This document shows positions 14,666 to 53,662 of a DNA stretch of 64,000 bases, piece by piece. This stretch comes from Aeoliella mucimassa (lineage in GTDB: Bacteria > Planctomycetota > Planctomycetia > Pirellulales > Lacipirellulaceae), in contig NZ_CP036278.1 of the NCBI RefSeq assembly GCF_007748035.1, positions 1,054,001-1,118,000 on the forward strand, read 5' to 3'. The notes beneath the pieces were generated by a model. The model did no database searches and was not told the origin of the DNA. It saw only the letters and a list, made by a program, of their open reading frames with translations. Position 1 is the stretch's first letter. Each line of letters opens with the position of its first letter. Position numbers and translations under genes: made by a program.

Positions 14666-14904
14666 GGCGGGAGTACAAAATATGGTGTGGAAGGCGAAAA
14701 ATACGGACAGACAAGTATAGTATCTGCTAGGCGCGCGTCACAGCCGGTTTCACGTGCCGGAGTCCGGCACGCCGAAAACCGAAGAGGCGACCCAACACGC
14801 TCTGCGCGACCGTGGAATTCGATCCGCTCCCGAGGGCCGACTGCTGGCACATCCTGCTGCCCTCCTGTTCGTCCATTTCTGCTAGCTTTCGCCCCCTCGG
14901 CGAA

Positions 14905-15413
14905 ATAGATTCCCATCGCTCACGAATAGATTCCCAATTTACCCACCGATGGGAAAATTGAATCTGCACGCACGCTGCAAAACCAGTGGTTTTCGGCTGC
15001 GAATAGATTCCCATTCCCAAAAACGCATCGAGTGGGAATCTATTTTTACGCGGCGCACTTATCGCAAGTCGTTGGTAGATAGTGGTTTGCATCAACACCT
15101 CCGCGGAAAGTGCCCAAAATAGATTCCCATGGGTGGGAAACTATTCTGGGAGGATTCAGGAATCAGGATTCGGGGGACAGGGGGAAGGAGCTTCCGGCGA
15201 CGCAGCCCCACCATCGCTTTACCCAACCGCGCAGCAGCGAACGCCCGCGCCAGCAAACATTCGCCTGCGCATCGCTAGAAGTTCTGACGTTTGAAATTCA
15301 TTCCATCGCAACCACCTCCATTAACTAAAAAGCCAACAGCCGATAGCTGAAAGCCGACAGCCAACACACCTGTCCATTAGATCACCTTAGGTGGCCAATT
15401 CCCAGCAAAAACT
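14905..15413. repeat. Structured intergenic repeat, copy 1
   Basis: This is one of three diverged copies of a palindrome-rich element. In order it holds: an AATTT/AAATT stem around 14936-14962 (one mismatch here); the invariant AAAACCA-G-TGGTTTT dyad at 14979-14993; a long-loop hairpin pairing AATAGATTCCCA (15002-15013) with TGGGAATCTATT (15033-15044); and a fourth hairpin with outer arms 15113-15122 and 15141-15150. A right-hand module follows, shared with copy 3 (CGCGCAGCAGCGAAC, GCAAACATTCGCCTGCG, CAGCCGATAGCTGAAAGCC), ending in AGGTGGCCAATTCCCAGC near 15413. No gene is convincing within it. It separates the CorC-like gene from the convergent end of the Amphi-Trp gene. Confidence 0.85.
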
Positions 15414-44772: not shown

Positions 44773-45066
44773 GGTTCTGACCGTGGGGGGATGCTGGCAA
44801 GGTTGGCGAAACAGGCAAAGGCAACGCTAACGTAGCACGTAAAATACACGAAAGACGGTGGTTTTTTCGGCGATCGTTACAGTCGCTACCGTCGTTGCAC
44901 GTTGCCTGACATTGCTATTTTCTCTGGTCGATAGACTCGCTCTTTGTCGAGTTTTGCGATACGATGTGACGATCCATGGCGGTATAGAGTCACTGCGGGG
45001 CAGTTGCGCGGCTGGCGTCGACTGTCACGTGAATTCAATTCCTTTGACCCCCCGGCCCCTCCCGTC

Positions 45067-46485
45067 ATGAAACATTTCGATTGCGTTGTCATCGGTACTG
45101 GTCCTGCTGGTCAAAAGGGAGCAATCCAGGCTGCCAAGCTCGGCAAGCGGGTTGCGATCGTTGAAAAAACCCGCGTGCTCGGCGGTGCCCAAATCAACAC
45201 CGGCACCATTCCCTCCAAAGCACTTCGCGAAGCGGTGTTGCACCTGACTGGAGCAGCCCAGCGCGGGTTGTTCGGCTCGAGCTATCGAGTCAAGAAGAAC
45301 ATCACCATCGCCGATCTTGTGTCGGTTTCGCAAACCGTGATGCGTCACGAATGGGACCTCATCCGTAACCAATTCGAACGTAACCATATCGAACTGCTGT
45401 GGGGATCGGCTCGCTTTGCGGGACCCAACGAGTTGTATGTCGAAGGACCGGAGTCGGTCGAGAAAATCACCGCCGATAAGTTCCTGGTCGCGGTCGGCAC
45501 TCGTCCTGCACGTCCGCAGAACATTCCGTTCAACGATACCACTATTCTCACGAGTGACGAACTGCTGAAGCTCGATCGTGTTCCCCGCAGCATGGTCGTT
45601 GTCGGCGGTGGCGTCATCGGCACCGAGTACGCCTGCATCATGGCCACGCTCGGCGTGAAGGTCACCCTGGTCGAAGGTCGTCGGCAGGTGCTCGGGTTCC
45701 TCGACCGCGAAATCGGCGACGCATTCCACTACTTCATGCGGCAACGCGGCATCACGCTCCGCCTGGGTGAAAAAGTGCAGTCGATCAGCGAAGTCGAAAC
45801 CTACAACGGCAAAGCACGCCGGTTCGTCGAAGCCCAGCTCGAAAGCGGCAAAACCCTGCGTGCCGAAACGCTGCTCTACGCGGTCGGTCGCCAGGGTGTG
45901 TGCGGGGCTCTCGGGCTCGATAACGTTGGCATCGAGTTCGATGATCGCGAACGCCTGCACGTGAACGATAGCTATCAAACCAACATCGAGCACGTGTACG
46001 CAGCCGGCGACGTCATCGGTTTCCCCGCGCTCGCATCCACCAGCATGGAGCAAGGCCGCCGGGCGATTTGCCATGCGTTTGGCGATTGCGAAGTCGGCAA
46101 CTACAACACGCAGCTCTTCCCGTTCGGTGTGTACGCGGTGCCTGAGATCTCGATGGTCGGCAAGACCGAAGAACAGCTTACCGAAGAGGGCATTCCCTAC
46201 GAGGCGGGTATCGCCCATTATCGCGAAATCGCCCGCGCCCAACTGCTCGGCGACGAACTCGGCATGCTCAAGCTGCTGATTCATCAGGACACGCACAAGA
46301 TTCTCGGCGTGCATGTCATCGGAGCCGGCGCGACCGAGCTGATTCACATCGGTCAGGCGGTCATGGCCCTCGACGGCGATGCCGAGTTCTTCATCAACAA
46401 CGTGTTCAACTTCCCCACGCTGGCCGAGTGCTACAAAGTGGCCGCCTACAACGGGCTGAACAAGTTGAATCTGGTGTACGCGTAA
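45067..46485 (+). CDS. sthA: Soluble pyridine nucleotide transhydrogenase (Si-specific)
   Basis: The 472-residue flavoprotein has the FAD Rossmann motif VVIGTGPAGQKGAIQAAKLG, the second nucleotide motif VVVGGGVIGTEYACIMATLG and the dimerisation domain ending NVFNFPTLAECYKVAAYNGLNK. GTIPSKALREAV marks the SthA group. Where disulfide reductases have CxxxxC, this protein reads GGAQINTGT, without either cysteine, which agrees with hydride transfer rather than disulfide chemistry. It converts NADPH and NAD+ into NADP+ and NADH. The longer in-frame upstream extension is not family-like. A 48-base gap separates the stop from repeat copy 2. Confidence 0.93.
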   Translation: MKHFDCVVIGTGPAGQKGAIQAAKLGKRVAIVEKTRVLGGAQINTGTIPSKALREAVLHLTGAAQRGLFGSSYRVKKNITIADLVSVSQTVMRHEWDLIRNQFERNHIELLWGSARFAGPNELYVEGPESVEKITADKFLVAVGTRPARPQNIPFNDTTILTSDELLKLDRVPRSMVVVGGGVIGTEYACIMATLGVKVTLVEGRRQVLGFLDREIGDAFHYFMRQRGITLRLGEKVQSISEVETYNGKARRFVEAQLESGKTLRAETLLYAVGRQGVCGALGLDNVGIEFDDRERLHVNDSYQTNIEHVYAAGDVIGFPALASTSMEQGRRAICHAFGDCEVGNYNTQLFPFGVYAVPEISMVGKTEEQLTEEGIPYEAGIAHYREIARAQLLGDELGMLKLLIHQDTHKILGVHVIGAGATELIHIGQAVMALDGDAEFFINNVFNFPTLAECYKVAAYNGLNKLNLVYA

Positions 46486-46532
46486 CCCGCAGCGACAATC
46501 GCTTGCCAGAACCGCGTAAGCTGCCTGGTTTG

Positions 46533-46878
46533 TAGATTCCCAATTTTCCCACGAGTGGGAAAATTGAATCGTCGCCCACGCTACAAAACCAGTGGTTTTG
46601 GGCCACGAATAGATTCCCATTCCCAAGATCGCATCGAGTGGGAATCTATTTTCTCGCAATCCACGCTGCGTAACTTCCTGCGATGTAAGGCTTTACATTA
46701 ATCGCATCGGGGGAAATCTCAAAAATAGATTCCCATGGGTGGGAATCTATTTTTTCCACCAGGTTTGGGGGTGCCGGTTCCGGCCCCGCTCGCCCAAATT
46801 GTCAAACAGCGTCGCACTGATCGCGCGGTAGTGCACACTCTATTAGAGGCCAACAGGTGGCCAATTTCCACGATAAAG
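46533..46878. repeat. Structured intergenic repeat, copy 2
   Basis: This is the shortest copy. Hairpin 1 pairs CAATTTTCCCAC (46541-46552) with GTGGGAAAATTG (46555-46566). The invariant AAAACCA-G-TGGTTTT dyad is at 46585-46599. Hairpin 3 pairs 46608-46619 with 46639-46650. Hairpin 4 pairs AAAAATAGATTCCCA (46721-46735) with TGGGAATCTATTTTT (46740-46754), a perfect 15-base stem. The right module is much reduced but still ends in AGGTGGCCAATTTCCA. The middle part (46680-46715) differs from copies 1 and 3. Hairpin 1 may also terminate sthA. Confidence 0.85.
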
Positions 46879-51509: not shown

Positions 51510-51868
51510 TGTCTTCGCCTGTTTGTTCCGAAACGCCGCGAAAAGAACCGCCGCCCATGCACGAAAAGTGGCCCGTAGGTCAACCATCCAGTTTACCTAG
51601 AGGACGCAGAAGTCACAACTCGATTGGTAATCTAATTTTATGTTTTGCGAGCTTGGCGGACGCGAAAACCCGTAAGCGACGCCGCTACTCGGCAGCCGTG
51701 AAGACCAAGGCCTGGACGCTCGAGCAAGCGGGGCACGGCGAGCACAAAATGCATGCAGCCCGCAGGTCGGCATTTGGCGTCCTCTCGGAACTCGCGTAAC
51801 CTGGTGCTCTCCGCTCCGTGCCACTCCGCAGCTCCCCGCATGGGGGGAGTCTCCCCGAACAGGGCGGG
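51510..51868. other. Intergenic region upstream of the GH128 gene
   Basis: This 359-base stretch should contain the GH128 promoter. I see no palindrome, repeat or reading frame that can be supported before the repeat begins at 51869. Confidence 0.4.
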
Positions 51869-52170
51869 ATAGATTCCCATCGCTCACGAATAGATTCTCA
51901 ATTTTCCCACCGATGGGAAAATTGAATCTGCACGCACTCTACAAAACCAGTGGTTTTGGCAACGGAATAGATTCCCATTTCCCAAAACGCATCGAGTGGG
52001 AATCTGTTTTCACAGTGGGAATAAATCGCAAGTCGTTTATTAGCAATGAGTTGCATCAACACCTCAGAGATAGTTGCCCCAAATAGATTCCCACCCATGG
52101 GAAACTATTTGGGGAGGATTCGGGATACGGGATTCAGGGGGCAGGGAAGTTGGGATTTATGATTTCTGAA

Positions 52171-53205
52171 GGCCTTGTTGAACAATTAGTCACAAACCTC
52201 CGTAAAAACTAACGTGGAATGGAACCACGTACCTTTTTTACGGAGATCGAACATGGCTACGAAAGAAAAACGAACCTACAAAGTCACGAACTGGAAGGAG
52301 TATAACAAGTCGCTCATCGAGCGTGGAAACATCACTATTTGGTTTAGCGACGAGGCGTTGGAGAACTGGGAACATCCTAACGACCAGACAAAAGTCGGTC
52401 GCCCTTTTGTCTTCAGCGATACGGCGATCGAGTGCTTGCTGACGATTCGCGAACTGCTGAAACTTCCCTATCGGCAGACTGAGGGATTCGGCCGCTCGCT
52501 GGTGGCGATGTTGGGCGTCGAGGCAGCGATTCCCAATTATTCTTCGCTCGCCAAGCGAGCCAGCAAGCTGAATGTTTCGCTCGATATCGCTAACAAGAGG
52601 GGCGACATCGATATCGTGGTGGATAGCACCGGCATGAAAGTGTTTGGCGAGGGCGAATGGAAGATGCGGACGCATGGCAAGTCGAAGCGGCGGACATGGC
52701 GGAAGCTGCATTTGTCGGTGAATCCTGACACCCGCGAGATTGTGGCGGAGATTTTGACCGAGAACAGTTGCCACGATGCCGATGCGGTTCCCGAAATGCT
52801 GGAGCAGGTGGAGCAGCCCGTAAAAAAGTTTCACGGCGACGGTAGTTACGACAAGTGGAAGGTTTATGAAGGGCTGGAATCCGAAGGCATTGAGCCGGTG
52901 ATTCCGCCGCAGCACAACGCCAAGATCAAACAACATGGCAACTCTGCGGAGGAGCCTTTGCCCCGGGACGAGGCAATTCGTCAGATTCGACGCAAGGGGC
53001 GTAGGAGTTGGAAAGAGGAAGTGGGCTATCATCGTAGAAGCTTGGCGGAAACGACCATGTACCGAGTGAAACAAAGCTTTGGGAGCCATCTCAAAAACCG
53101 AGTATTCGAAAACCAACAAACGGAAGCCCGCTTGCGCTGTAAAATCATCAATCAATTCACCCAACTCGGGCTTCCACAGTTCGAGTGGAGTTAGTCAACA
53201 AGGCC
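52171..53205 (+). mobile_element. IS5-family (IS903-group) insertion sequence
   Basis: The element is 1035 bases long. Left end GGCCTTGTTGAACAATTAG and the complement of the right end GGCCTTGTTGACTAA share 11 terminal bases, and both resemble the IS903 end GGCTTTGTTGAATAAATC. ATTTCTGAA stands directly outside both ends (52162-52170 and 53206-53214), a 9-base target duplication as expected for this group. It encodes one intact transposase. The insertion splits repeat copy 3, so it happened after that repeat arrived; the clean ends suggest it is fairly recent. Confidence 0.92.
52253..53194 (+). CDS. IS5-family transposase
   Basis: The 313-residue protein has an N-terminal helix-turn-helix-like region (PFVFSDTAIECLLTIRELL) and a DDE nuclease domain: the first Asp in DIVVDSTGMKV, the second in FHGDGSYDK, and Glu in YHRRSLAETTMYRVK. 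The last stretch fits the Y(2)R(3)E(6)K signature exactly. The start at ATG 52253 has GGAG eight to eleven bases upstream; in-frame sequence before it is not family-like. The frame is complete, so the element may still be active. Confidence 0.95.
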   Translation: MATKEKRTYKVTNWKEYNKSLIERGNITIWFSDEALENWEHPNDQTKVGRPFVFSDTAIECLLTIRELLKLPYRQTEGFGRSLVAMLGVEAAIPNYSSLAKRASKLNVSLDIANKRGDIDIVVDSTGMKVFGEGEWKMRTHGKSKRRTWRKLHLSVNPDTREIVAEILTENSCHDADAVPEMLEQVEQPVKKFHGDGSYDKWKVYEGLESEGIEPVIPPQHNAKIKQHGNSAEEPLPRDEAIRQIRRKGRRSWKEEVGYHRRSLAETTMYRVKQSFGSHLKNRVFENQQTEARLRCKIINQFTQLGLPQFEWS

Positions 53206-53662
53206 ATTTCTGAATGATGATTTCTGATTGCGGAGGATGTCATCTTGAAGGAGCTTCCGGCTACTGAAAGATCTAGCCCGCAGCTTAAAGCCTACAGCTT
53301 TACCACACGCGCAGCAGCGAACCCCCACGCAAGCAAACATTCGCCTGCGTGTCGCTAAGCGTTCGTGTTCAAAATAAACGTTACATCTCCATCACCTCCA
53401 ATCATCAAACAAGCCAGCAGCCGATAGCTGAAAGCCGACAGCCTAAAGTACCTGTTCATTAGAGCACTGCAGGTGGCCAATTTCCAGCGAAAACTGGCAA
53501 GAATCCAACCGACCTACAGCCGCCTGATCGCACGAGGTGCTCCATTGCTGAAGCTCACGCCGAACACATGGTGCCGAACCATTCGCTTTAGTGTCGAATC
53601 TCAACTTGTTAAGCTACAGGTCTTGTTTAGAGTTTGCAGTACGTACCCCTGCTCGAAGAGTC

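Follow-up and report, generated by a model that had tools for sequence, protein, structure and literature searches.

The window, a stretch of 64,000 nt from Aeoliella mucimassa (NZ_CP036278.1), contains three copies of a palindrome-rich element, and all three were located within a few bases of where the original prediction had placed them (14905-15413, 46533-46878 and 51869-53495). Copy 1, on the + strand, begins with an upstream iteron, AATAGATTCCCA (14904-14915), followed by a core at 14925-15150 delimited by a sequence-only model. Within this core lie an H1 dyad (14935-14960), an AAAACCA-G-TGGTTTT dyad (14979-14993), an H2 dyad (15002-15044), a conserved spacer and an H3 dyad (15113-15150). 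A variable right-hand part (15151-15367, + strand), filled by heptamer-like tandem repeats of AGCCGAT, GGATTGC and similar types, leads to the tail (15368-15413, + strand, with the tail match at 15389-15404), which is the portion recognisable in other species. Copy 2 (core 46532-46754, tail 46855-46870, both +) lies immediately downstream of a flavoprotein gene at 44944-46485. Copy 3 has an upstream iteron with one mismatch (GATAGATTCCCA, 51868-51879), a core at 51889-52113 and a tail at 53471-53486, all on the + strand. Its great length is explained by a 1035-bp insertion sequence inside it (52171-53205, + strand) that is foreign to the element, encodes a DDE transposase and carries a 9-bp duplication, ATTTCTGAA. 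The inverted repeats, including AAAACCA-G-TGGTTTT, recur in the same order in each copy as had been claimed, and the copies share the described end, with tails reading AGGTGGCCAATT(C/T)CCA at 15389-15404, 46855-46870 and 53471-53486.

When the species' own genome was searched with copy 1 by BLAST, copies turned up along the whole 6.61 Mb contig. From 32 cores we made a sequence-only model, which found 143 places, or 141 after merging two copies split by insertions; because just 150 of the 2196 first-look candidates were scored, 141 sites is a lower bound. The window holds three of the 143 places, the same three that had been noted before, and the expectation of many more per genome proved right, with at least 141 sites. 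These are spread over the whole chromosome rather than confined to three copies in one duplicated segment, and they are not fragments of a known transposon: the insertion sequences that we found sit within elements. Pattern searches gave similar pictures, with 93 forward and 53 reverse matches to the tail (≤2 mismatches) versus 4 and 0 for a reversed control, and 118 matches to the central dyad (≤1 mismatch) versus none for its control. Of the 100 tail places listed, 15 lie more than 2.5 kb from any core. The exact motif AATAGATTCCCA occurs 559 times inside element zones versus 6 times outside them in the 2.23 Mb of sequence around copies, and three of these six adjoin, by their coordinates, IS200-like insertions that split copies. 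By this contrast and by the DNA fold of copy 1 (z = -6.4), the element is not a chance product.

A typical copy consists, in order, of upstream iterons, the core, the heptamer-repeat variable part and the tail. The core is about 228 nt long and almost fixed in length, and holds, in sequence, the first dyad, an AAAACCA-N-TGGTTTT dyad, the second dyad, a conserved spacer and the third dyad; AATAGATTCCCA serves as both iterons and dyads. Upstream iterons number 0-4 per copy, with at least one extra iteron in 65 of the 123 anchored copies, and are spaced by 21-22 bp in 78 of 92 intervals. The tail, ACCTGTCCATTAGAACACC..GGTGGCCAATTYCCAGCGAAAA, was matched in 116 of the 125 long copies. In 93 of 113 cores, the right arm of the third dyad is TGGGAAAC or TGGGAAAG rather than the full complement TGGGAATC, and the hairpin therefore retains a mismatch. 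The loop of this dyad reads ATGGGT in 46 of 113 copies and its reverse complement, ACCCAT, in 44, with no relation between loop direction and strand (P = 0.67). The near-equal use of both directions suggests inversion of the hairpin at the DNA level. Loop direction in the first dyad is constant in most copies.

To describe variation within the core, we omitted 18 of the 143 places as shorter than 190 nt, leaving 125 copies; 113 of these cores are ungapped, and the other 12 were dropped as not ungapped or not anchored. Across the 113 cores, two or fewer copies depart from the consensus at 109 of 228 positions, versus 0.06 expected under an even spread, and 25 or more do so at 51 positions, versus 0.35 expected. 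The linkers are variable and in linkage equilibrium, with linkage between variable positions at background beyond 25 bp (r2 0.010-0.011). The closest pair of cores is 94.3% identical, so that there are no near-identical recent copies. Given these near-invariant positions, variable unlinked linkers and a maximum identity of 94.3%, we read the copies as old, selected sites. The pattern supports copies that appear to be old, with a core probably kept by purifying selection, and not a recent mobile burst. The independence of sites may reflect exchange between copies by recombination, saturated linkers or a combination of these; mutational saturation instead of gene conversion could produce it. For nine short blocks of the core, 2 of 36 pairs had an uncorrected p below 0.03, which we take as no association.

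In 14 of the 125 long copies, the tail lies more than 800 bp from the core start. Six of these stretched copies contain the 1035-bp element seen in copy 3, six contain a 318-codon IS110-type frame (one of the proteins tested) and two contain an IS200-like gene. Four of the 1035-bp insertions, compared by eye, have 9-bp duplications at differing positions; besides the one in the window, such insertions occur in elements within L076-L215. The element is a landing zone for insertion sequences, and no insertion sequence that we found is common to all copies. Inserted insertion sequences aside, we saw no gene of the element's own between core and tail.

The sites lie mostly between genes. With genes called by a simple method based on codon usage, 119 of the 123 cores assessed do not fall mostly within a called gene, two of the 125 copies having been dropped from the neighbour analysis for want of neighbours within 4 kb. 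The neighbouring genes of the cores are convergent in 36 cases, divergent in 31 and tandem in 56, compared with 117, 152 and 426 for other gaps ≥100 bp long in the sequence around copies. There is therefore a mild excess of convergent neighbours and no fixed orientation such as a leader or operator would show. Distribution along the chromosome is also non-random, the sites being more even than chance: the coefficient of variation (CV) of the gaps between the 141 merged sites is 0.673 versus 0.989 at random, none of 10,000 random sets was as even, and two gaps are under 9 kb versus 24.5 expected. Adding the 15 tail-only places (156 sites) gives a CV of 0.665 versus 0.991 (lowest random value 0.769) and three gaps under 9 kb versus 29.7 expected. 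Even spacing could also be explained by transposition immunity or by loss of DNA between close repeats. Among the 143 places, 91 are on the + strand and 52 on the - strand (P = 0.0014), an excess present in both chromosome halves (37:19 and 54:33). We rejected replichore polarity, as orientation is not mirrored between the halves when origin and terminus are inferred from sampled skew.

We looked for the element in other genomes. BLAST with the core returned nothing credible in 58 relatives; the sole foreign match, in G032, spans 42 bp, falls within a coding gene as judged by eye and was taken as chance. The exact dyad has no match in IMG/VR and occurs in GTDB, where the window's own genome was perhaps excluded, at two loci of unrelated genomes with one dyad each, which we also attribute to chance. 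Foreign matches in a search with the right-hand part were not counted because they are short or fall on heptamer-like stretches; short matches to the heptamer-like repeats occur in 10 of the 58 relatives searched, in which the core was not found. The model, with 15 candidates scored per genome and weaker relatives therefore possibly overlooked, produced a weak match in the congener G003, where it immediately follows the ortholog of the gene preceding copy 2 of the window. An 18-bit match at the order level (L219 in G129), with neither tail nor gene context seen, was not counted. Pfam identifies the gene preceding copy 2 (44944-46485) as a pyridine nucleotide-disulphide oxidoreductase, which we take to be sthA-like.

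Related sequence built on other motifs is present after the sthA-like gene in three congeners and in one genome of another genus. In G003 and G001 this sequence belongs to a dispersed family. In G003, a model from four copies found at least 34 places, those four included, with 150 of 998 candidates scored, and GTAAATTC is a motif that recurs in the four model copies. In G001, with 40 of 145 candidates scored, there are at least about 40 distinct places, including one after the sthA-like gene, and the motif is GTTTTGGGCCAA. A tail match in the orientation of the element, 150-650 bp after its start, is found at 15 of 29 loci in G001 and 8 of 30 in G003, versus about 0.01 expected per search window in this position test. 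The tail pattern by itself is unspecific in foreign loci (43 matches versus 17 in shuffled sequence). After the sthA-like gene, the tail profile of the window species scores above all 300 shuffles in G002, G003 and G018; it misses the tail of G001 (P = 0.14), which a looser pattern detects. At this position, G018, the genome of another genus, has two 13-nt dyads of ACTTTTGTCCC, and G002 has a 9-nt dyad of TTTGTCCCT. No element was recognised, by eye and by a dyad search weak enough that it barely detected the G003 element, after the gene in twelve other genomes of the family that have it. One of these twelve (L328 in G005) has a tail-profile P of 0.007, which we attribute to chance given that 17 loci were scored. 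Iteron spacing of 21-22 bp is not a conserved feature: in G001, an extra iteron 17-27 bp upstream is lacking at 24 of the 25 anchored loci.

We then asked whether positions are shared between species, counting a flank of a G001 or G003 copy as orthologously placed if the best match of its flanking gene lies beside a copy in the window genome (G000), on the same side and in the same orientation. The test omitted the sthA-like locus of G001, one duplicate piece and flanking genes without a unique strong match; its subject, the G000 sequence around copies, is biased to element neighbourhoods, a bias for which the null allows. Orthologous placement was found in 6 of 30 assessable flanks versus about 1.3 expected (P about 0.002), of which G001 contributed 4 of 16 (P 0.005) and G003 2 of 14 (P = 0.13, not significant). 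One of the six matches is weak, at 32% identity. The other 24 flanks are placed differently, four of them near a copy on the other side or in the other orientation. One locus (L288) that seemed adjacent in an informal synteny count fails this fixed criterion. Orthologous placement together with differing motifs indicates that part of the positions, and not the motif, is common to these species. The simplest account is vertical inheritance with homogenisation within each genome; repeated insertion at preferred sites is a possible alternative for the shared positions.

We favour, at about an even chance, the interpretation that the element is a putative protein-binding array with a chromosome-scale role. 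The copy number, architecture, selection, spacing, partial positional conservation and motif differences between species are supported by the data above, and we infer a binding protein, gene conversion and a nucleoid role to go with them. The element would be a double-stranded chromosomal site in which one species-specific 12-bp motif is used as direct and inverted repeats, with a distant tail, and a candidate sequence-specific DNA-binding protein would probably occupy this array cooperatively. Sequence statistics support the view that the sites, at least 141 in number, are old, intergenic, more evenly spaced than at random and held in their core by purifying selection, with no fixed orientation to the genes. 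At some orthologous places congeners have a different motif, so the copies within a genome would need a process that keeps them alike, the simplest being gene conversion over short tracts. The most likely job would be on the scale of the chromosome, for example in nucleoid organisation or segregation, and not the control of particular genes. Of the "nucleoid/replication site" in the original prediction, it is the nucleoid or chromosomal site that fits spacing, selection and partial positional conservation best. Together, these observations suggest a kind of chromosomal site that has gone unrecognised and takes on a new sequence from lineage to lineage. More tentatively, and rather doubtfully, it may be a bacterial counterpart of fast-evolving centromere- or hotspot-like DNA, a genome-wide set of arrays that organise the chromosome, with positions partly inherited across species and the motif rewritten genome-wide per lineage through co-evolution with a rapidly changing binding protein and gene conversion between copies.

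The main rival, which we regard as unlikely though well short of negligible, is a REPIN-like non-autonomous element whose hairpins were single-stranded DNA substrates of an HUH (Y1) transposase and which this enzyme once spread through the genome. The many copies between genes and the imperfect hairpin, with its mismatched H3 right arm in 93 of 113 cores, are what such an element would show, and the genome has 13 matches to PF01797 (Y1). Class 3 Y1 proteins of Planctomycetes are reported to adjoin atypical secondary structures that are sometimes high-copy (PMC6006769). Such proteins could escape a PF01797 search; by eye, the class 3 signature was not recognised in four translated Y1 proteins. 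In G000 (1852207) and G001 (L287) alike, a RAYT-like gene is found close to an element, a linkage in two species that made RAYT a promising motor. This candidate is weakened by the gene's own frame of inverted GGGGACATTCTACTTTT repeats (G000 1852080-1852860), which were not seen in the element. Nine of the 13 Y1 matches are apparently one IS200-like element or its fragments, with equal scores, and several are inside elements; a scan for motif and tail in the flanks of 11 of the 13, the other two being inside elements, revealed no cognate transposase linked to the element. Past copying also has to contend with the 94.3% ceiling on identity, the lack of linkage structure, the even spacing and the partial conservation of position. 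A non-autonomous mobile element, as originally suggested, is possible, but it would be one with neither near-identical copies nor a linked cognate transposase among those found. A selection-free decayed repeat left by a burst of miniature inverted-repeat elements (MITEs), its even spacing due solely to purging of close copies, would likewise be dispersed mostly between genes, and it agrees with the failure to see any gene between core and tail other than those of inserted insertion sequences. We consider it very improbable: the site-rate distribution, with its 109 near-invariant positions versus 0.06 expected, contradicts an even spread of change unless the conserved positions mutate very rarely, 113 of 125 cores have no indel, and no shared ends were seen beyond iterons and tail, the left end being of variable length.

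The original prediction also named a structured RNA, and a structured non-coding RNA family transcribed from about 140 loci does receive some encouragement from the stable RNA folds of copy 1 (z -6.1 and -4.8 for the two strands) and from dyad arms that differ together between species. Within the species, however, a double change is seen in 2 of 53 predicted pairs, and the predicted partners of a long-range helix (CACTT with AAAGTG) are independent of each other (P = 0.76). The DNA strand folds as strongly (z -6.4), Rfam gives no match up to E 1 in the window, and neighbouring genes impose no fixed orientation; we think an RNA family improbable. Origins bound by Rep at iterons combine direct repeats with dyads of one motif, and the direct repeats 21-22 bp apart and dyads of the same motif in our element are reminiscent of these. 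Replicator-like sites derived from the origin of an iteron plasmid or phage nevertheless seem a highly doubtful source, since searches of 72,556 plasmid records and 50,697 phage records found no match to the core of copy 1.

The preferred protein-binding array resembles known systems in part. The sites matS, parS and those of Noc are short, dispersed protein sites that are not tied to the control of single genes. Our element shares this dispersal and lack of a tie to single-gene control, and protein binding is predicted for it; unlike them, it forms a long array, present at least 141 times across the whole chromosome, and its motif differs between species. REPs and REPINs with RAYT are similar in having more than 100 intergenic palindromic copies and lineage-specific sequences. 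According to PMC3733652, REPs are 20-40 bp long and bear a GTAG or CGTC tag, and no invariant GTAG or CGTC was seen at the stem foot in our consensus, read by eye. In contrast to REPs and REPINs, the element has a 228-nt core plus tail, forming one fixed-length unit in 113 of 125 copies. We found no cognate transposase linked to it and no near-identical copies; its spacing is even, and counterparts with another motif occupy some orthologous places. The BIMEs of enterobacteria are likewise mosaics of palindromes between genes and are reported to be bound by several proteins (PMC2817692); they differ from our element in its fixed-length core, its use of one motif as iterons and dyads, and its copies rarely under 9 kb apart. 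Among the papers listed from the literature searched, to which most subscription papers do not belong, we recognised no description of such an element.

If the favoured interpretation is right, dispersed sites in bacterial chromosomes can stay in place even as each species comes to have a different sequence there. Searches by plain similarity would miss such sites, as did our first search of relatives, and such systems may be commoner than is known. Planctomycetes have an unusual chromosome and cell biology. The interpretation would permit a direct test, by way of the predicted AATAGATTCCCA-binding protein of this species and the corresponding protein of a sister species.

A small gene on the reverse strand of the element was also considered and rejected. 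A ribosome-site-like sequence, GGAGGTGTTGATG, precedes an ATG, and 22 of 32 copies keep the frame open. Variability in this frame shows no codon periodicity, with site entropies of 0.44, 0.35 and 0.37 at codon positions 1, 2 and 3, and stops occur in 10 of the 32 copies, some directly after the ATG.
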